Source: a virus. From it: a stretch of 40,225 bases of DNA. The notes under the pieces are model-generated. The model saw only the letters and a list, made by a program, of their open reading frames with translations. It made no database searches and had not been told where the DNA came from. This document shows, one piece after another, positions 19,620-39,908 of this stretch (position 1 is its first letter; every line of letters begins with the position of its first letter). Location: positions 1 through 40,225 of IMG/VR virus record IMGVR_UViG_3300032273_000004; one strand, given 5' to 3'. The position numbers were made by a program, and so were the translations under genes.

Positions 19620-20035
19620 GCGGCCCCCTTGGTTCGACGGTCACGTTTACGGATGTAACACTCGGAATAGGCGTCGAGGGCGTCCAATACATGATCGGGA
19701 CGACTATCGGATTGACTGATCATCACATCCACCGGCTTAATGTCGAATTGGTGATACACCCCCGACAACGGGCCGTATTGATGGCACACAAACGCACCCA
19801 TTTGGCGCAACATGGCTTGTTCCTCGGCGCTATTGACGCCCACAACCAACGTGACCACTTCATCCGACCAACGACCTGACGTTTCGAGCTTAAGGCGACG
19901 AAGGCGTTCGTTTATGTCTGAAATGAAGCCCAGGTACACGCGGCGCACTCGGCTGGCTCCCAATTCATTGACCATTGCAAAGTGGAACGCGTCCGCTTCG
20001 CTTTCTTTCTCGCCCATCACCGCCATTAAAATCAT
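19616..20035 (-). CDS. Early hypothetical protein
   Basis: 139 aa, start overlapping the Cro-like stop as ATGA. Starts MILMAVMGEKESEADAFHFA; an alpha/beta pattern (DEVVTLVVGVNSAEEQAML, DVMISQSD) ends in a basic tail YIRKRDRRTKGAA. No recognised domain. Position suggests a gene of the first lytic transcript. Confidence 0.6.
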   Translation of the reverse strand: MILMAVMGEKESEADAFHFAMVNELGASRVRRVYLGFISDINERLRRLKLETSGRWSDEVVTLVVGVNSAEEQAMLRQMGAFVCHQYGPLSGVYHQFDIKPVDVMISQSDSRPDHVLDALDAYSECYIRKRDRRTKGAA

Positions 20036-20253
20036 GCCGCTCTCTCCGCTTGTTTCTGTTCGTATTCCAAATCGAACAAACTAAATTCCACTTTTCCGCG
20101 TGATACACGGCGGATCTTGTTGCGGCTTTTGGCTTTTGGAGATCGGCGAAAGTGAACCCATTCGTTCACTGACTTTGGGCTGACGTCGAGTTGCCTAGCG
20201 AGCCATGTTTGGCCGCCAAAACCCAACGTTTTGATCCAGTCTTGAAACCTCAT
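20032..20253 (-). CDS. Cro-like transcriptional regulator
   Basis: 73 aa, divergent from the CI-like gene. MRFQDWIKTLGFGGQTWLARQLDVSPKSVNEWVHFRRSPK is a compact HTH of the Cro/YdaS kind: short helices, recognition helix about SPKSVNEWVHF. It is the first gene of the lytic operon. Its promoter is TTGTCT-17-TAATCT (20311-20283), whose spacer is filled by ACAACGTTTTGTTGT. Confidence 0.75.
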   Translation of the reverse strand: MRFQDWIKTLGFGGQTWLARQLDVSPKSVNEWVHFRRSPKAKSRNKIRRVSRGKVEFSLFDLEYEQKQAERAA

Positions 20254-20450: not shown

Positions 20451-21098
20451 ATGAGACAAGAGATAAAAGAAATCATTGGCGACCGACTCCGCTCACTACG
20501 ATTAGGCAAGGGTTGGACCGCAAAAGAAGCCGCTCGGGCCGCTACCGCTGTCGCTGGTACAAACATTTCACCAGGACGCTGGCAAAACTGGGAATGTGCT
20601 TCCCGGGCGCCTAGTTTGGAATTATTCCCTTACCTGGCGAAAACCCTCGATACTACGCCGGAATATTTGGCGGGTTGGAAAAATGAGCCAGGGATAGGCG
20701 TCGAAACCAATAAATACATACTGGCCAACCTTGAGCCAGGTGGAAGCAACGACGATATTGCTTTTAATGTCGAAGCGTTAAACCGTCACGGACTGCATGA
20801 GCACAAACTCAAACTGATCACCGTTAATGATGATGCCATGAGCACACACTTTAGCCGTGGTAATTTGGTCCTAGTTGACCGCTCAGACACCGACATCAAG
20901 GGCGCGGGTATTTATGCCCTAGAAAGTGACGGCGCGGTCTTCTTGCGTTACGTTCGTCGTGAACCTGGCATCGGCTTTGTGATGTATGCCGACGATGACA
21001 AACACGCACCAGAACGCACGTTCACCATTGATGACTTTGAACGCATCCAGGTTATCGGCCGTTACGTGTTTAAAGCCTCTTGGGCCACACTGAACTGA
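20451..21098 (+). CDS. CI-like repressor, protease dyad missing
   Basis: 215 aa. N-terminal HTH domain (residues about 8-75; GKGWTAKEAARAATAVAG...ISPGRWQNWECASRAPSLELFPYLA) and a C-terminal S24/LexA-like domain (about 110-210; LKLITVNDDAMSTHFSRGNLVLVDRSD...GIYALESDGAVFLRYVRREPG). In cleavable relatives the motif is GDSM and later a Lys; here the Ser is A129 (DDAM) and the Lys place is R166. So the dimerisation fold is kept but RecA-driven self-cleavage by the usual dyad is not possible. Start ATG has AGGG 8 nt upstream. Followed by a terminator at 21116. Confidence 0.85.
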   Translation: MRQEIKEIIGDRLRSLRLGKGWTAKEAARAATAVAGTNISPGRWQNWECASRAPSLELFPYLAKTLDTTPEYLAGWKNEPGIGVETNKYILANLEPGGSNDDIAFNVEALNRHGLHEHKLKLITVNDDAMSTHFSRGNLVLVDRSDTDIKGAGIYALESDGAVFLRYVRREPGIGFVMYADDDKHAPERTFTIDDFERIQVIGRYVFKASWATLN

Positions 21099-21215: not shown

Positions 21216-21491
21216 ATGAATACTGGCGAAGTAGCAACCATCACCATCCAGGGCCCGAAGGATTTACGCGCCGCCCAGCGGCAACAAATTCGCGCCTTAA
21301 ACCAAACCCAAGCGTTTCTTATTGGCGCGGGTTGTACTCTTGAAAAAGCCTTAGAAAGTGCCGAAATGGACGACGAAGCGCGCCGCCTTGTCAATTCTGC
21401 CTTTTTTCAACTGCAGCAAGTTGAAACGGAATGCGTAAAACTTCATGCACACATTGACGCCCTAACCTTTATTGGACACGGCCATGACTAA
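21216..21491 (+). CDS. Early hypothetical protein
   Basis: 91 aa (MNTGEVATITIQGPKDLRAAQ...), AAGGGAAAG upstream of the ATG. Helical, Gln- and Ala-rich, short CVKLHAHIDALTFIGHGHD end. No known domain. First gene of the rightward operon; its last bases overlap the next start by 8 nt. Confidence 0.65.
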   Translation: MNTGEVATITIQGPKDLRAAQRQQIRALNQTQAFLIGAGCTLEKALESAEMDDEARRLVNSAFFQLQQVETECVKLHAHIDALTFIGHGHD

Positions 21492-27402: not shown

Positions 27403-27576
27403 TTAAGCTACTTCTAGTAACTCTTTAATTTCAACCATTAACCCTTTATTCAACAAGTTCGCCGCGCGAATCTCGTCGATGACATTATCATCGTTCTTAG
27501 TTAGGTTGTCCGCTACTGCCAAAATATTTAAAACCTGATCACACTTAGCCAAAACGGCCGCTTTGTTATTGCTCAT
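27403..27576 (-). CDS. Small protein, paralogue 1 of a tandem pair
   Basis: 57 aa from the ATG at 27576 (MSNNKAAVLAKCDQVLNILA), GGG 8-6 nt upstream; the longer frame to 27603 has no SD. By eye it shares about 25 residues with its neighbour 27720-27896: KC(D/E)Q(V/I)L-x-IL-x-V, (D)DN(V/I)-x-DE, AANLL-x-KGL, LxE. All-helical, amphipathic. A TATAAT -10 lies at 27623-27618 upstream. Confidence 0.7.
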   Translation of the reverse strand: MSNNKAAVLAKCDQVLNILAVADNLTKNDDNVIDEIRAANLLNKGLMVEIKELLEVA

Positions 27577-27610
27577 ATCAAACCCTTTAGTGGTAACAAT
27601 CATTTGTTAT

Positions 27611-27719: not shown

Positions 27720-27896
27720 CTAGTCCATTTCGACTAGATTATCCACCTCCAAAACTAAGCCTTTTATCAGTAAATTAGCGGCTAATACCTCATCGCAAAT
27801 GTTGTCACCTGATTTCGCTAAATCATTCTCAACTTGCAAAATCGCTAATATTTGCTCACATTTTGAATGAATAGAATTTTTATTGCCTTTAGCCAT
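27720..27896 (-). CDS. Small protein, paralogue 2 of a tandem pair
   Basis: 58 aa, ATG at 27896, GGAG 8 nt upstream. MAKGNKNSIHSKCEQILAIL...GDNICDEVLAANLLIKGLVLE is a helical protein. It is the first gene leftward from the XRE regulator. Candidate promoter TTGCCC (27949-27944), 17 nt, ACAATA (27926-27921), with the 24-bp palindrome centred about 90 nt upstream of the start. Function unknown; placement next to a TF recalls the TF plus small-protein lysis modules of marine phage-plasmids (family knowledge). Confidence 0.7.
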   Translation of the reverse strand: MAKGNKNSIHSKCEQILAILQVENDLAKSGDNICDEVLAANLLIKGLVLEVDNLVEMD

Positions 27897-29617: not shown

Positions 29618-29940
29618 TAAAATAAACGAGTATTTAAGCCGGTCATTTCGGTAAAGGTGCGCTGCAGCATATCGGCATAGATACCCTGTTCGTTGGCCAG
29701 TTCGTTACATTCAAACTTACGAGGCATATATTTAAGGCCGCGGACCGTGTAAGTGTCAGATGGGTTTAAGATGATTTGAATTTTATTGATGCCATCTTTT
29801 ACATAGTGACGAGTGCGAGGAAGGTCAAACTGTAGGCCACTTTCAATAGCAACCACGTTTTTCGCGCCGGTCATAGCCACAAAGCGACCGCCGCCAAGCT
29901 GTTCAAGAATGGTTTTTGCAATGATTTGATTGTTAGTCAT
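29617..29940 (-). CDS. Conserved plasmid-type small protein (leader copy A)
   Basis: 107 aa from the ATG at 29940 (MTNNQIIAKTILEQLGGGRF); the longer frame is only a reading of the leader. VAMTGAKNVV...LPRTRHYVKDGINKIQIILNPSDTYTVRGLKY is a pattern I recall from small conserved proteins of proteobacterial plasmids and phages, function unknown. Preceded by leader copy A (29945-30018). The long frame includes the leader and would start at 30018, which is not credible. Confidence 0.7.
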   Translation of the reverse strand: MTNNQIIAKTILEQLGGGRFVAMTGAKNVVAIESGLQFDLPRTRHYVKDGINKIQIILNPSDTYTVRGLKYMPRKFECNELANEQGIYADMLQRTFTEMTGLNTRLF

Positions 29941-29944
29941 CGTG

Positions 29945-30018
29945 TTATCTCGGTTTTGGCCTTGGCACCTTGCCCGGCCTTCGAGATAAATAATAGGACT
30001 TTTCGTCCTACCTTGCAA
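29945..30018 (-). promoter_or_regulatory. Promoter plus leader, copy A
   Basis: Minus strand: TTGCAA (30018-30013), 17 nt holding AGGACGAAAAGTCCT (30009-29995), TATTAT (29995-29990), then a leader of about 45 nt: TTATCTCG ... CGAGATAA, with an inner GGCC/GGCC and GGCA/TGCC pairing. The CGAGATAA arm also holds the only SD-like bases (GAGA) 5-11 nt before the ATG, so the stem can hide it. Nearly identical to copies B and C. Confidence 0.75.
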
Positions 30019-30027
30019 GTATTTTCT

Positions 30028-30059
30028 TTCTTTAATTATTTATTTATTTATTTCTTTAT
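30028..30059. repeat. Octamer array 6, next to leader copy A promoter
   Basis: TTCTTTAA, TTATTTAT, TTATTTAT, TTCTTTAT, in phase on the plus strand, 10 nt upstream of the copy A -35. It overlaps the end codons of the 30040-30348 gene. Confidence 0.6.
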
Positions 30060-30388: not shown

Positions 30389-30619
30389 TTAGTTGGCCAA
30401 CAAGGCGCTTACGCCTCGCCAGCTTTTATATTGTTTTTCGACGGCTTCAAGGCTGGCGAACTGTTTAATCCCCAGACCACGATAAGCGCGACGACTGGCA
30501 TTATCAGTAAACATTTCCCAATATTCACCCAAAGCATCCTCTTTGTGGCTAAGAGTCATCTTATTACCACGCGTTTCTAAATAGAATGTTTTGCTGTCTA
30601 ACTGAATGATTGCTTTCAT
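30389..30619 (-). CDS. Conserved plasmid-type small protein (leader copy B)
   Basis: 76 aa, ATG at 30619. MKAIIQLDSKTFYLETRGNKMTLSHKEDALG...WEMFTDNASRRAYRGLGIKQFASLEAVEKQYKSW has the look of small conserved plasmid proteins of unknown function. Preceded by leader copy B. Confidence 0.65.
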   Translation of the reverse strand: MKAIIQLDSKTFYLETRGNKMTLSHKEDALGEYWEMFTDNASRRAYRGLGIKQFASLEAVEKQYKSWRGVSALLAN

Positions 30620-30623
30620 CGAT

Positions 30624-30697
30624 TTATCTCGGTTTTGGCCTTGGCACCCTGCCCGGCCTTTGAGATAAATAATAGGACTTTTCGTCCTAAATTACAA
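30624..30697 (-). promoter_or_regulatory. Promoter plus leader, copy B
   Basis: Minus strand TTGTAA (30697-30692), 17 nt with AGGACGAAAAGTCCT (30688-30674), TATTAT, then the conserved leader. One base of the outer stem differs (TTATCTCA/CGAGATAA), weakening one pair. Otherwise the same as copies A and C. Confidence 0.75.
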
Positions 30698-30706
30698 GCG
30701 ATTACT

Positions 30707-30738
30707 TTCTTTAATTCTTTATTTCGTTAATTAAAGCC
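30707..30738. repeat. Octamer array 7, next to leader copy B promoter
   Basis: TTCTTTAA, TTCTTTAT, TTCGTTAA, TTAAAGCC (last one degenerate), in phase on the plus strand, starting 10 nt upstream of the copy B -35. Overlaps a weak hairpin GCCGA/TCGGC (30736-30750) that may end the 30828-31166 gene. Confidence 0.65.
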
Positions 30739-30827: not shown

Positions 30828-31166
30828 CTAATGGCTCTTGAGGCGATTAATGGACTCAGCCAAGCCGTAACACTCTAAAGCCTCGTTAAGCGCTTCCTGA
30901 TTGAAATAAGCCGTAAAATGGTCGCAAAAATGATAAGGACCACTAACGTTAAACTCATCATCACGATAAAAGCACGTAGCATCGTGATAATTGTTTTCAT
31001 CTTTAAGCCATGCGATCACTTCTTCTGCAGTGACCAGGTGGTAGGCGCTCTCGTAGCTATCATCAATTTGCATTGATGATACGCGGCCAATAATGCCAAC
31101 GGCACTATTTAAAATAGATTGGATCTTCTTGGTAGCATTTTTACGAATCGTTTTGTAATCAGTCAT
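30828..31166 (-). CDS. Plasmid-type small protein (leader copy C)
   Basis: 112 aa from the ATG at 31166 (MTDYKTIRKNATKKIQSILN); the longer frame is only a reading of the leader. YHLVTAEEVIAWLKDENNYHDATCFYRDDEFN is an alpha/beta pattern, function unknown. Preceded by leader copy C. The region 30751-30827 after its stop has no convincing gene. Confidence 0.65.
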   Translation of the reverse strand: MTDYKTIRKNATKKIQSILNSAVGIIGRVSSMQIDDSYESAYHLVTAEEVIAWLKDENNYHDATCFYRDDEFNVSGPYHFCDHFTAYFNQEALNEALECYGLAESINRLKSH

Positions 31167-31170
31167 CGAA

Positions 31171-31244
31171 TTATCTCGGTTTTGGCCTTGGCACCTTGCC
31201 CGGCCTTCGAGATAAATAATAGGACTTTTCGTCCTAGCTTGCAA
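31171..31244 (-). promoter_or_regulatory. Promoter plus leader, copy C
   Basis: Minus strand TTGCAA (31244-31239), 17 nt with AGGACGAAAAGTCCT (31235-31221), TATTAT, then the conserved leader TTATCTCG...CGAGATAA before the ATG at 31166. No octamer array upstream, unlike copies A and B. Confidence 0.75.
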
Positions 31245-31289
31245 CTGTTTTTTTTGCGCCCAGAAGCGCACCCACAGAACCTACTTTCA

Positions 31290-31932: not shown

Positions 31933-32820
31933 CTAATAGGGTATGTCGGCGCAGTCGTCTACTGGGCCGGGGTCAGACTCTAACTCGCGAGACTTATACA
32001 GCGCCTTGATCTCTGCATGGCTAAAGCCCTGGTTCAAAAGGTTTAGCGTCTCTTCTGTCCGGTTCTGGGACTGCAACGAAGCTAACATTTCAGTTATTGG
32101 CTTCGTCACACGTTCGAATTTAGCATGGCTGCGTTGCTTGTTGCGTTTATCTCTGACCTTATCATCTACTTTACGGTAACTATCTAACTGCTCTTGCTCT
32201 GGCGTTTTCTCAAGCTGTTTGATTTGCTTTCTTTGTTTAGCCTTGGCGCGTTGCACTGTCACAAACTGACCAAGACCCAGCATTTCAAAGATCACCATAT
32301 TTAAACGTTTGATTGATGCTACACCACGATAAACAGGGCCGACATCACTGTCCTTTTCTTCTCTTTGTTCAAAAGAAAGGTAAAGGCCCGCGCGTTTTAA
32401 GCTGTAGATGCAATTATCAACAGTTCTTGATGGCATGTTAAGGCGATCAGCAAACAAGCTATTTTCACAGCGTTCTAACTTATGAGTGACTCGATCACGA
32501 ACACCAACGAGGTTTGATGCTAAGTCATAATGAAGGATAGCCGTCGCTAAAACCTTCATGGTATTAGCGTAATGATCAGCCCTATCGCAAATTCGAGTTT
32601 TTAGCTTACTGCGATTTTGGATACTTTGAAGGACCTCAGTCGCCGCTTGCAACAACACATAAGGAAGTCGTTCGCTAACGTCATAACCAAGGCTAGATGA
32701 TAGGTATTTCGCATTTTCTTCGGCGTTTTTCTTCGCCCATGCGGTTTTTTCTTGTTGCGAGTAGTCTCTAAACTCGTCAGCTAGGACTTTAGCCCTAGTT
32801 ACAGATACATTTTCTTTCAT
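31933..32820 (-). CDS. rep: Plasmid replication initiator protein, RepA (IncFII/IncI-like)
   Basis: 295 aa from the ATG at 32820 (MKENVSVTRAKVLADEFRDY); a TTG at 32856 is also in frame. The middle has a winged-helix part (LFADRLNMPSRTVDNCIYSLKRAGLYL) and VASIKRLNMVIFEMLGLGQF, the pattern of antisense-controlled theta initiators. The C-terminal third is basic and charged (KAKQRKQIKQLEKTPEQEQL), typical of the family. No SD is obvious, which fits coupled translation. Replication would start at oriR downstream. An alternative family with the same layout cannot be excluded. Confidence 0.75.
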   Translation of the reverse strand: MKENVSVTRAKVLADEFRDYSQQEKTAWAKKNAEENAKYLSSSLGYDVSERLPYVLLQAATEVLQSIQNRSKLKTRICDRADHYANTMKVLATAILHYDLASNLVGVRDRVTHKLERCENSLFADRLNMPSRTVDNCIYSLKRAGLYLSFEQREEKDSDVGPVYRGVASIKRLNMVIFEMLGLGQFVTVQRAKAKQRKQIKQLEKTPEQEQLDSYRKVDDKVRDKRNKQRSHAKFERVTKPITEMLASLQSQNRTEETLNLLNQGFSHAEIKALYKSRELESDPGPVDDCADIPY

Positions 32821-32847
32821 ACTGATGCTTTTTTTACCGTTTAAGGC

Positions 32848-32968
32848 TTGCAGCAATCAGGTACAACAAGTAAACTCTAATTTGTTATGTAGGGTTTTGT
32901 ATTATGCCGCCAAACATTAATACACTTGTTATTGCCCGATTAAAGAACCCCGCTTTTGCGGGGTTTTT
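32848..32968 (+). ncRNA. Candidate antisense RNA of rep (copy-number control)
   Basis: Plus-strand promoter TTGCAG (32848-32853), 17 nt, TAAACT (32871-32876), start near 32884; intrinsic terminator AACCCCGC-TTTT-GCGGGGTT-TTT at 32946-32968, so an RNA of about 85 nt. Inside, TGTATTA/TAATACA (32898-32904/32918-32924) makes a hairpin with loop TGCCGCCAAACAT. The opposite strand (rep mRNA) shows TTGGCG in its loop, the motif known from antisense-controlled IncB/IncI/IncFII-type replicons. The leader may also encode a 10-aa peptide from ATG TTT GGC on the minus strand. Confidence 0.65.
32946..32968 (+). terminator. Terminator of the antisense RNA
   Basis: AACCCCGC-TTTT-GCGGGGTT with TTT after it, then GCTTTTT. 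Plus orientation is stronger than minus, where TTCTTTAAT follows. Confidence 0.85.
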
Positions 32969-33086
32969 GCTTTTTAAACCTTTATTAATCTTCATCTTGC
33001 CCGCCTAAGTCGCCAAACCATAAGCCAACAAGCACTAAAACAACATTTCGCAATAAGCCTACCACACGATGCGGAAAGGATCACGC

Positions 33087-33114
33087 AAAAAAAGATCTGG
33101 TTATTTATCCAGAT
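33087..33114 (-). terminator. Terminator of the LexA-controlled gene
   Basis: Minus strand ATCTGG-ATAAATAA-CCAGAT followed by C and seven T. It overlaps the stop of the 33105 gene, so that gene is a single-gene unit. Confidence 0.75.
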
Positions 33115-33308
33115 TGGTCCGACTCGCCGTTCTTCTGGTCGAATCGCTTTAACTGCACTGCAGTTGCACTCGCCACCTTAATCGCTTGATGCAGTCCAGG
33201 ATCGCAAATTTCGCTATCCTCGCTTGCTGCCTCAATAAAACGTAATAATGCGGCCAAGTTATCGACTGTACCTGATCTCGTTCCGTCGTTTAAAGGGTTC
33301 ACGTTCAA
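33105..33308 (-). CDS. Small LexA-controlled protein, candidate SOS anti-repressor
   Basis: 67 aa from the TTG at 33308 (LNVNPLNDGTRSGTVDNLAALL), which has GGAG 8 nt upstream; a GTG at 33317 (70 aa) would have its SD touching the start. Helical, amphipathic (DNLAALLRFIEAASEDS, DPGLHQAIKVASATAVQLKRF), no DNA-binding motif. A near-consensus LexA box is at 33336-33355 over its TATAAT -10. It stands between the late tail operon and rep. As the repressor cannot self-cleave, a role like that of Tum (phage 186) or AntC (N15) is a fair inference. Confidence 0.7.
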   Translation of the reverse strand: MNVNPLNDGTRSGTVDNLAALLRFIEAASEDSEICDPGLHQAIKVASATAVQLKRFDQKNGESDQSG

Positions 33309-33335
33309 AATTTGCACTCCGATCGACTTTTATTA

Positions 33336-33355
33336 TACTGTTTATTTATACAGTA
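33336..33355. promoter_or_regulatory. LexA (SOS) box
   Basis: TACTGTTTATTTATACAGTA: the outer TACTGT/ACAGTA is perfect and the spacing CTGT-N8-ACAG is the gammaproteobacterial LexA consensus. On the minus strand the TATAAT at about 33338-33333 is the -10 of the downstream small gene, so bound LexA would block it. No good -35 is visible. Confidence 0.85.
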
Positions 33356-33428
33356 AGATTATGCACACAAAACCCCATCGGCATCAAGTTTATAACGTTT
33401 TTTGTCGATAAGGCTTTGTTGTGAATGA

Positions 33429-34400
33429 TTATTTAGGTATCACTAATTCGAGTGTTGTTTCTGAAATTCGATCACGTCCAACAAAGTGATCGGCGCCTTC
33501 AACCACCCATAGGCCATTGGCCACCGGCTTATGGTTTAGCACCTGGATTCGGAAGCCTACGCCCAAATGAGGGCTAAGCGGGCGAGTTAAAGAAAACGTC
33601 TTTTTCCCTCGTTGGCGTTCTTCCAGTTCAGCCGTAGCGGCTTTTAACGCCTCATCTTCGCTCATGTACTCCTGTTTGAGCGTCAATGAAGGCTCGCCGT
33701 CGCCGGCTTTCACCTGGCGTTTTTGTTGGGCAGGCTCATCAAACCAATGCGCCACCACCGATTGATAGTTGTCTCGCTCTTTGGTTACGATTCGACCCGA
33801 TGAGTTATGCGCGTCGGCGATCACTTCTAGCGGCATTTCCTGACCACTGGCGGTTTTTCCTTCCCCTTTCCCAGTCACCAGTAAACGTTCAGCGACTGGT
33901 TTTGCTATTGCGCCATATTGACGACCAAGGCGGGTTAATAGGTTTAAATCCGATTCGGCTTTCTGATCGATGTGCTCAAATTTAATCTTGGCCAGCTCAT
34001 CACTGATCACCGGCTGCAGATTGTTTTCACTGGCGAGCTGTTTTACCAAATCGCCATACGTGATGTTGTCAAAGGTTCGGTCTTTGGGCGCTTTAATATT
34101 CCCTTTTATATCTGCTGCAGTGCCATGAATGATCAAGTCGTCGTTATCGAGCGATTCTTCTAACTCTGTCACTTGATAAACACCTTTTGGGACCAGTGCT
34201 TTCCCCGTTCCGAGAGAAATAATCAACTTTGCACCGGTCGATAATGGTTTAATCACATTGCCGCGGTTATCCAGGGTAATTGTCACCGAGTCAGATTCAA
34301 CACCCGCCGCATCATGCAACGTCATACTTAAAAAGCGGTCTTGAATCTTCGCGGTGATATCGGCATCGTTGGCCATAATTTGATAAATCGGTGGTTCCAT
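33429..34400 (-). CDS. Baseplate hub / late control protein, P2 gpD-like
   Basis: 323 aa. MEPPIYQIMANDADITAKIQDRFLSMTLHD is the gpD start, and ESDSVTITLDNRG and YQVTELEESLDNDDLIIHGTAADI continue the pattern. It is the last tail gene (X, then D), as in P2. The name late control is historic; in tails this family is the hub between spike and tape measure. Confidence 0.92.
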   Translation of the reverse strand: MEPPIYQIMANDADITAKIQDRFLSMTLHDAAGVESDSVTITLDNRGNVIKPLSTGAKLIISLGTGKALVPKGVYQVTELEESLDNDDLIIHGTAADIKGNIKAPKDRTFDNITYGDLVKQLASENNLQPVISDELAKIKFEHIDQKAESDLNLLTRLGRQYGAIAKPVAERLLVTGKGEGKTASGQEMPLEVIADAHNSSGRIVTKERDNYQSVVAHWFDEPAQQKRQVKAGDGEPSLTLKQEYMSEDEALKAATAELEERQRGKKTFSLTRPLSPHLGVGFRIQVLNHKPVANGLWVVEGADHFVGRDRISETTLELVIPK

Positions 34401-38429: not shown

Positions 38430-39908
38430 TTAACTAAAAATTTGTTCGTTGTAAGTACGGTTAACGTGCTGACGGAATGTCACACGTTCGGCCACGTCGT
38501 AGAACCCGAGGTCATAGTCAAAGAACACCTGACCGGTTCCGATCGCGTTGATGTTATCTTCGGTATCCACCCAGCAAAGACCGCCGCTGATCACTTCGCC
38601 CGTCAGGCGGCGTAAGAACGCGTTCACACGGCCCGTCACTGACTCGACATAGTTTTTAGTAACAAGGCGATCCACTGCGTCCTGGTGCGCTTCGTTAATG
38701 CTATCGCCGACAATGTAGCGAATACGTTGGTGCGGCAGCATGACGCCATTGGTGAGGCGGTTGCCCCATAGATGCCAACCACCCTTTTTATTTACGATGG
38801 TCACAATGTTGTTGCTGTTGAGCTGGTTCGCTAAGCAGCTTTTCGCACCTGGACCACTCGATACATAAGGAATATCGATCGCCGTGCCTTCAATCTCGTA
38901 GATCTTGCGGTTCGATGGTGAGTTCCAGTAACCCTCATCGTTATCAACACGCACAATATGACCGGCTACCGTGGCCGACATGTGGCGCTTAACCGTGGTT
39001 TTCTTGTCTGGGTCATAGACTGAAATACCACCGTGCAAGAAATACGCTTCGGCAAACTTACGCGCACGTTTGATCACGTTGCTGTAAGTGTCGTAATGGT
39101 CCGAGTCAATTAGGGCGATACCGTTAAGGTTTTTCGCTACGCTTTCCATCTTCTCGCCCACACTCGATAGGTGTGAGAACTCCGGAGCGATGATCAAGCG
39201 AGGACGAATCCCGAGCAGACCCTCGGCACCTTCCAAGGCGGCTAAGCCTGTCGTGTTACCGTTCTCATCCATCGAGCCGATCACGTTGGCTTTGGTGGTT
39301 GCTTCGTCGTTACCTTCGGCGACACGCACCACCACCACCACCGCGCCGGTTTGGTTGTAAATGTCGGTTAAGGCATCTTTTAACGTGCCATCACTGCCCG
39401 CTTTAGCGATCAGCTTGTCCGAGGTGACGAGCGTCGGCTTATTCAGTGGGAACGGCTCATTCTCACCGCCAGATAAATACACCTGGTAAGCGTATTCGAT
39501 GACGCCCGAACCATCACCGCCCGCGGCGGCCGTGATTAAGTCGTTCGCTGCATCGTCAGCGTTTAACGCGCTGGCAACTTCGGACGCGGTAGACGTGATC
39601 ACCCCATCAGCGCCAGTGGCTAAAGTGACTTGAATGGCATCGCCATCGAGGGCCACCGAAAGCGCGACGTCGTTCGCTTCTGGGTCAATCAGTTCGATAC
39701 TGATACCGTTGCCACGAGGACCCGTTTCAACCGCTGACACGGTCAGGGCGCTATTGTCTTCGCCCAGGGTTAGCGTGGCCGCGATAGCAGATTGAGCATT
39801 GGGCGCCGTTGCCACTAAACCGATAGTGGACGCGGCCAGGACTTCGATCGGGCGTGTCGTATCTGGTAGTAAATACGTTTCGGCACCGTGGAAATAATTT
39901 CCTGCCAT
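38430..39908 (-). CDS. Tail sheath protein, P2 FI-like
   Basis: 492 aa, somewhat over the P2 length (396), because of an N-terminal inserted domain about residues 40-150 (LTLGEDNSALTVSAVETGPRG...EIDPEAND). The FI core begins about NKPTLVTSDKLIAKAGSDGTL and includes WHLWGNRLTNGVMLPHQR and the C-terminal VNAFLRRLTGEVISGGLCWV. It forms the contractile sheath. Confidence 0.93.
   Translation of the reverse strand: MAGNYFHGAETYLLPDTTRPIEVLAASTIGLVATAPNAQSAIAATLTLGEDNSALTVSAVETGPRGNGISIELIDPEANDVALSVALDGDAIQVTLATGADGVITSTASEVASALNADDAANDLITAAAGGDGSGVIEYAYQVYLSGGENEPFPLNKPTLVTSDKLIAKAGSDGTLKDALTDIYNQTGAVVVVVRVAEGNDEATTKANVIGSMDENGNTTGLAALEGAEGLLGIRPRLIIAPEFSHLSSVGEKMESVAKNLNGIALIDSDHYDTYSNVIKRARKFAEAYFLHGGISVYDPDKKTTVKRHMSATVAGHIVRVDNDEGYWNSPSNRKIYEIEGTAIDIPYVSSGPGAKSCLANQLNSNNIVTIVNKKGGWHLWGNRLTNGVMLPHQRIRYIVGDSINEAHQDAVDRLVTKNYVESVTGRVNAFLRRLTGEVISGGLCWVDTEDNINAIGTGQVFFDYDLGFYDVAERVTFRQHVNRTYNEQIFS

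Follow-up and report, generated by a model that had tools for sequence, protein, structure and literature searches.

We analysed a viral DNA record of 40,225 bases from IMG/VR (the window) and find a small minus-strand gene (33105–33308) behind a perfect LexA (SOS) box, which probably encodes a LexA-repressed anti-repressor. Its proposed target is an S24-like CI repressor encoded on the plus strand (20451–21098) and predicted to be non-cleavable. Anti-repression is the best explanation because the anatomy of the locus, its conservation, a dead repressor, specific co-variation and a reported response to DNA damage point to it together. The gene appears to found an undescribed family, with no homology to AntC detected in a low-power hhalign comparison. 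A search of the open-licence literature found no description of the small-protein family, of its distribution in phage-plasmids or of its pairing with a pseudo-S24 repressor.

The window encodes P2-like tail genes, a GpA-type large terminase, an integrase, ParA and a plasmid-type Rep. Judged by Rep and ParA beside phage genes, the record is a phage-plasmid, and the virus is a plasmid-living element of marine bacteria. The small gene, delimited from its open reading frame, start choice, homologues and AlphaFold2 model, lies between the last tail gene, which is gpD-like (33429–34400), and rep (31933–32856, minus strand), the plasmid replication initiator that it adjoins. Rep has a match to phrog_25700 and a profile link to the rep genes of relatives. 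The first-pass annotation had placed the small gene alone between the late operon and rep; it is the sole short gene between the late tail genes and rep both in this record and in relatives. The immunity region contains the repressor gene, a divergent Cro-like gene of the YdaS/Cro family (20032–20253, minus strand) and, beside the repressor, a gene for a 91-aa product (21216–21491).

The interval between the small gene and rep (32880–33075) contains a conserved CCGCATCGTGTGGTAGG element and a GC-rich hairpin, and recurs in relatives with different rep genes. It is probably a rep leader or an antisense-RNA copy control; a search of this leader against Rfam gave sub-threshold matches only. Elsewhere in the window, a 117-nt element occurs in three direct copies (29937–30053, 30616–30732 and 31163–31279; 76–87% alike to the first). 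Each has a promoter-like TTGCAA-TATTAT, a short palindrome (GGACGAAAAGTCC) and then a GC-rich leader hairpin, and two copies precede small genes, so that the element looks like a shared operator or leader. Two adjacent minus-strand genes (27403–27603 and 27720–27896) encode similar proteins of 58–66 aa with no significant family match.

The LexA box (33336–33355, TACTGTATAAATAAACAGTA), identified by a motif scan and by its conservation in tabulated family members, matches TACTGT-N8-ACAGTA with no mismatches. It had been called near-consensus and is in fact perfect. It is the sole match in the window at two or fewer mismatches and has the only perfect CTGT-N8-ACAG core in the record; by chance, about 0.4% of 120-nt stretches in records of this kind would have such a core. 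We regard the box as a candidate LexA-controlled site, which LexA would be expected to occupy. A sigma-70 promoter, TTGATG-18-CATAAT (33358–33387, minus strand), lies directly upstream of the box, and an equivalent is present in most relatives. This conserved promoter stops 2 nt short of the box, which places the box over the transcription start and not over the −10 element. The earlier proposal that the box masks a TATAAT −10 is therefore rejected in favour of the upstream promoter, which has comparative support.

The open reading frame of 67–70 aa and its own terminator, both described before, are confirmed. The frame (33105–33317, minus strand) can start at GTG (33317, 70 aa) or at TTG (33308, 67 aa). 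TTG is the likelier start on sequence context, because it lies 8 nt after a GGAG ribosome site and is kept in close relatives, whereas GTG overlaps the GGAG. The intrinsic terminator (33095–33114, minus strand) consists of an ATCTGG/CCAGAT stem followed by CTTTTTTT; the stop codon lies inside the loop, and with the U-run the transcript is predicted to end at the stop codon.

The 67-aa product is acidic (pI 4.6) and is modelled by AlphaFold2 as a helical hairpin (H11–29 and H37–65, pLDDT 80). The first reading recognised nothing like it, and searches agree: the protein and its relatives have no significant match in Pfam, PHROGs or NCBIfam, a PDB sequence search with the protein gave no match, and Foldseek of the model against PDB and BFVD returned nothing below E 0.9. 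None of 14 family members has a Pfam match to DinI.

Relatives found by tblastn are Aliivibrio phage H905 (77%), Vibrio phages including K256, K303 and PhiPS02, and five Vibrio plasmids. Contig scans extended the set to IMG/VR records and a contig from Paraglaciecola: the scan that used an alignment found Paraglaciecola and Vibrio HDW18, a scan of genome contigs with a single protein found no member, and a 14-member profile was too divergent for contig scanning. With the repressor as query, more distant phage-plasmids came to light, from Aeromonas, Edwardsiella, Pseudomonas, Halomonas and Vibrio. In a blind test on 6,261 open reading frames of 12 held-out records, the top seven matches of a profile built from eight Vibrio and Aliivibrio members were all homologous LexA-boxed genes (E 2e-8 to 0.04), and all seven sit between tail genes and rep. 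The family thus occurs in elements of seven genera (Vibrio, Aliivibrio, Paraglaciecola, Aeromonas, Edwardsiella, Pseudomonas and Halomonas). Among Vibrio-genus genomes, 3 of 227 carry a member, on contigs of about 37–43 kb; a sample of 369 genomes at class level yielded no member at E 1e-4 besides the centre genome itself.

The regulatory region is conserved with the gene. A perfect CTGT-N8-ACAG core is present in all 19 tabulated members and begins 33 to 83 nt upstream of their start codons, and most of them have a TTGnnn-17/18-nnTAAT promoter directly ahead of the box. Boxes seen apart from this tabulation include that of Edwardsiella, found among the held-out-record matches, and those of two co-resident elements of a further Vibrio genome. 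The box of the Pseudomonas lundensis member spans the end of its record and departs from the core at one position (CTGT-N8-CCAG). Separately, in H905 and elements of the G005 type another LexA-like box follows closely on rep, some 1.6 kb past the start of the small gene (L006:6731; L031 and L032/L033); the window lacks it.

The first-pass annotation took the repressor to be non-cleavable, and this holds as a prediction from its alignment with Escherichia coli LexA, VP882 cI and UmuD. In the window repressor the nucleophile Ser is Ala (DDAM), the catalytic Lys is Arg (VFLRYV) and the Ala-Gly cleavage site is Ala-Asn. Among partner repressors of elements with the small gene, the catalytic Lys is replaced by Arg in 16 of 16 and the Ala-Gly site is lost in 16 of 16; the nucleophile is Ala in 8 of 16, the window's included. 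The partner repressors are thus predicted not to undergo RecA-mediated autocleavage. Repressors were compared as sequences and single-chain models. The predicted structure of the window repressor, a weak model as a whole (mean pLDDT 73, pTM 0.48), has as its closest PDB match the CI repressor of phage 186 and its lambda hybrid (7jvt, 2fjr; E 2.9e-6).

Other phage-plasmids show several combinations of repressor and box. VP882 has a repressor with intact Ser, Lys and Ala-Gly and no LexA box. The phiHAP-1 repressor has Arg at the Lys position in a by-eye alignment, and the element has a perfect LexA box before a non-homologous small gene, gp35 (95 aa, L068:28613-28928), between repA and the protelomerase gene. 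This locus is where VP882 keeps its SOS-independent vqmA-qtip module. VHML combines a degenerate repressor with the lack of a perfect LexA box, and in an E. coli phage-plasmid whose repressor is distant no LexA box is promoter-like; these two must use other means. The phage-plasmid of Serratia sp. JSRIV006, whose distant repressor has Arg at the Lys position, has a LexA box before a small, unrelated ORF of slightly fewer than 90 aa (L028:17378), perhaps an analogous replacement.

Because the small gene adjoins rep, we tested for a role in replication. The protein could control replication from the position of CopB/RepA2 in IncFII plasmids or in the manner of Rop, so that SOS alters plasmid copy number. 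The gene does lie directly upstream of rep and its conserved leader region, and the rep genes of relatives match the RepA IncFII/L/M family. The hairpin model can also be superposed on ColE1 Rop (Z 6.9, 51 residues, rmsd 1.4), but VIA-align lists Rop among many helical hairpins, Z values below about 13 are uninformative for helical bundles, and hhalign profile comparison with Rop gives a probability of 0.1, with no match to the Pfam Rop family. Only the hairpin shape aligns, and the sequence profiles give no support to kinship with Rop; a weak residue resemblance (EICDPGLH and DICESLH) was set aside. The terminator of the small gene moreover precedes the rep leader. In distance matrices over 15 elements, distances of the small protein correlate (Pearson) with those of the repressor (0.91), the Cro-like protein (0.88), the product of the 21216 gene beside the repressor (0.88), the integrase (0.79), ParA (0.60) and Rep (0.47), the last being the lowest among genes held by most elements. 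The partial rank correlation with the repressor is 0.64 given the integrase (permutation p 2e-4, only a guide since the sequences are related) and 0.61 given the integrase and Rep, while the partial correlation with Rep given the repressor is −0.03. The contrast is clear: the adjoining rep does not co-vary with the small gene, and the immunity region some 12 kb away does. Exchange of rep tells the same story. One V. alginolyticus element has a distant repressor and a distant small protein, yet its rep shares 64% identity with the window rep; rep is exchanged freely, and the small gene keeps to its immunity type. An accessory role for the protein at rep is rejected for want of co-variation, and replication control in general is highly improbable.

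Co-variation indicates the immunity region as the site of action, the repressor being the best fit. The Cro-like protein and the product of the 21216 gene co-vary almost equally, so the target could be another product of this region: the small protein might help Cro, stabilise an activator or act with the 91-aa product. The three genes move as a block, and co-variation therefore cannot tell them apart. We nevertheless think such an action unlikely, since a repressor that cannot be cleaved calls for an inactivator that depends on SOS, and no gene in the record other than the small gene has an SOS box. It is also quite improbable that the product is an SOS-timed host-takeover protein unrelated to CI, such as a DinI-like modulator of RecA or an inhibitor of cell division or replication. 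Such proteins are encoded by some LexA-boxed prophage genes, among them dinI beside the Gifsy anti-repressors (PMC3121763), and one relative (L010) has a LexA-boxed umuD. The family, however, has no match to DinI or any other domain, and a host target would leave unexplained both the co-variation with the repressor and the pairing with repressors that have lost cleavage.

Comparison with close relatives constrains how an anti-repressor could bind. The tail genes and the small gene are 92–100% identical to IMG/VR records G003 and G004 (97% for the small gene), and the remainder, including the repressor, is 93–100% identical to G005 in nearly every gene compared. The window repressor is 98% identical to that of G005 and 75% to that of G003. 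From this pattern the window is evidently a recombinant, a recent mosaic with rep from a third source; one breakpoint falls around 32860–33105 and others within the late genes. Since the small gene and the repressor come from different lineages, any binding between their products must tolerate 25% divergence of the repressor. The Gifsy anti-repressors act on heteroimmune repressors (PMC3121763).

For anti-repression we propose the following sequence of events. In the lysogen, the CI-like repressor would keep the lytic genes off. Its S24 domain would no longer cut itself, so that RecA could not inactivate it directly. After DNA damage, RecA would trigger cleavage of LexA, which would leave the box, and the small gene would then be transcribed from TTGATG-18-CATAAT. 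The acidic hairpin protein would bind the repressor, with the oligomerising C-terminal domain as the likeliest point of contact; we infer both the binding and its site. The repressor would be released from its operators and lytic growth would start. PhiPS02 has been recovered from lysogens treated with mitomycin C, and its authors describe an ordinary cI (PMC12724201). By our comparison it is a family member, with a Lys-to-Arg repressor and a boxed gene, and its recovery with mitomycin C is the behaviour expected of one; the report does not tie it to the small gene or to LexA.

A more speculative extension, which we hold as a doubtful but possible one, is that the dead S24 domain serves as a docking site. 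One family of helical hairpins would then recognise the conserved pseudo-protease and not the operator-specific part of the repressor, and so would act across immunity types and co-induce co-resident phage-plasmids after DNA damage. One Vibrio-genus genome contains two co-resident elements of different types, each with its own LexA-boxed member (G076:C4 and G076:C5; L072 and L073), and this pair is a natural case for testing cross-induction.

The likeness to 186 tum and N15 antC drawn in the first-pass annotation stands as a functional parallel, supported by the conserved box, the dead repressors, the 186 CI fold, the co-variation and the mitomycin C report on PhiPS02. Homology to AntC was undetected and Tum was compared by description, so the parallel does not extend to membership of those protein families. 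N15 is likewise a phage-plasmid, with a CB repressor lacking the Ser/Lys dyad and a LexA-boxed small acidic gene; we take AntC to be the 75-aa ORF behind the LexA box at 39564. It has no detectable sequence relation to the window protein (hhalign probability 0.3, E 0.23 over 21 columns, with low power against a single AntC sequence). N15 is also a linear plasmid with a telomerase, unlike the window record, which has a tyrosine integrase and in which no protelomerase was noticed. Phage 186 has its tum gene under LexA control, and Tum inactivates 186 CI, which is non-cleavable and whose fold is nearest to that predicted here. Tum is a protein of 146 aa in which the second half resembles DinI (PMC3121763), whereas the window protein has 67 aa and no DinI match and is encoded beside rep in a phage-plasmid.

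GfoA, GftA and GfhA of the Salmonella Gifsy prophages are small, under direct LexA control, and bind non-cleaved repressors (PMC3121763). Like the window gene, their genes are small, LexA-controlled and outside the immunity region, and their action crosses between heteroimmune phages (PMC3121763). In LT2 the Gifsy-1/-2 repressor is a short protein of 136 aa without an autocleavage motif, whereas the window repressor keeps an S24 domain that is dead. The Gifsy genes adjoin dinI, and the window family is likened to them by description, not by sequence. Small proteins encoded near rep or par also inactivate cI in Vibrio phage-plasmids, as in the Qtip and TF-smORF modules of VP882 and phages 72 and 63 (PMC10432266). 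Their position in these linear vibriophage plasmids resembles that of the window gene beside rep, but they are SOS-independent and paired with autoproteolytic cI, whereas the window repressor is of the non-proteolytic class. Phages with non-proteolytic cI were left aside in that study of linear plasmid-like phages, because their SOS response is unpredictable from the repressor (PMC10432266).

If the proposal is true, it would identify the trigger for a group of phage-plasmids in at least seven gammaproteobacterial genera and provide a sequence signature for annotation, with Aliivibrio H905 and PhiPS02 as isolated systems ready for tests. It would add another anti-repressor family beside Tum, AntC and GfoA, and support LexA-controlled anti-repression as a common alternative to repressor cleavage. 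Such anti-repression is already known; the protein family, its spread in phage-plasmids and its pairing with a pseudo-S24 repressor appear undescribed in the open-licence literature.
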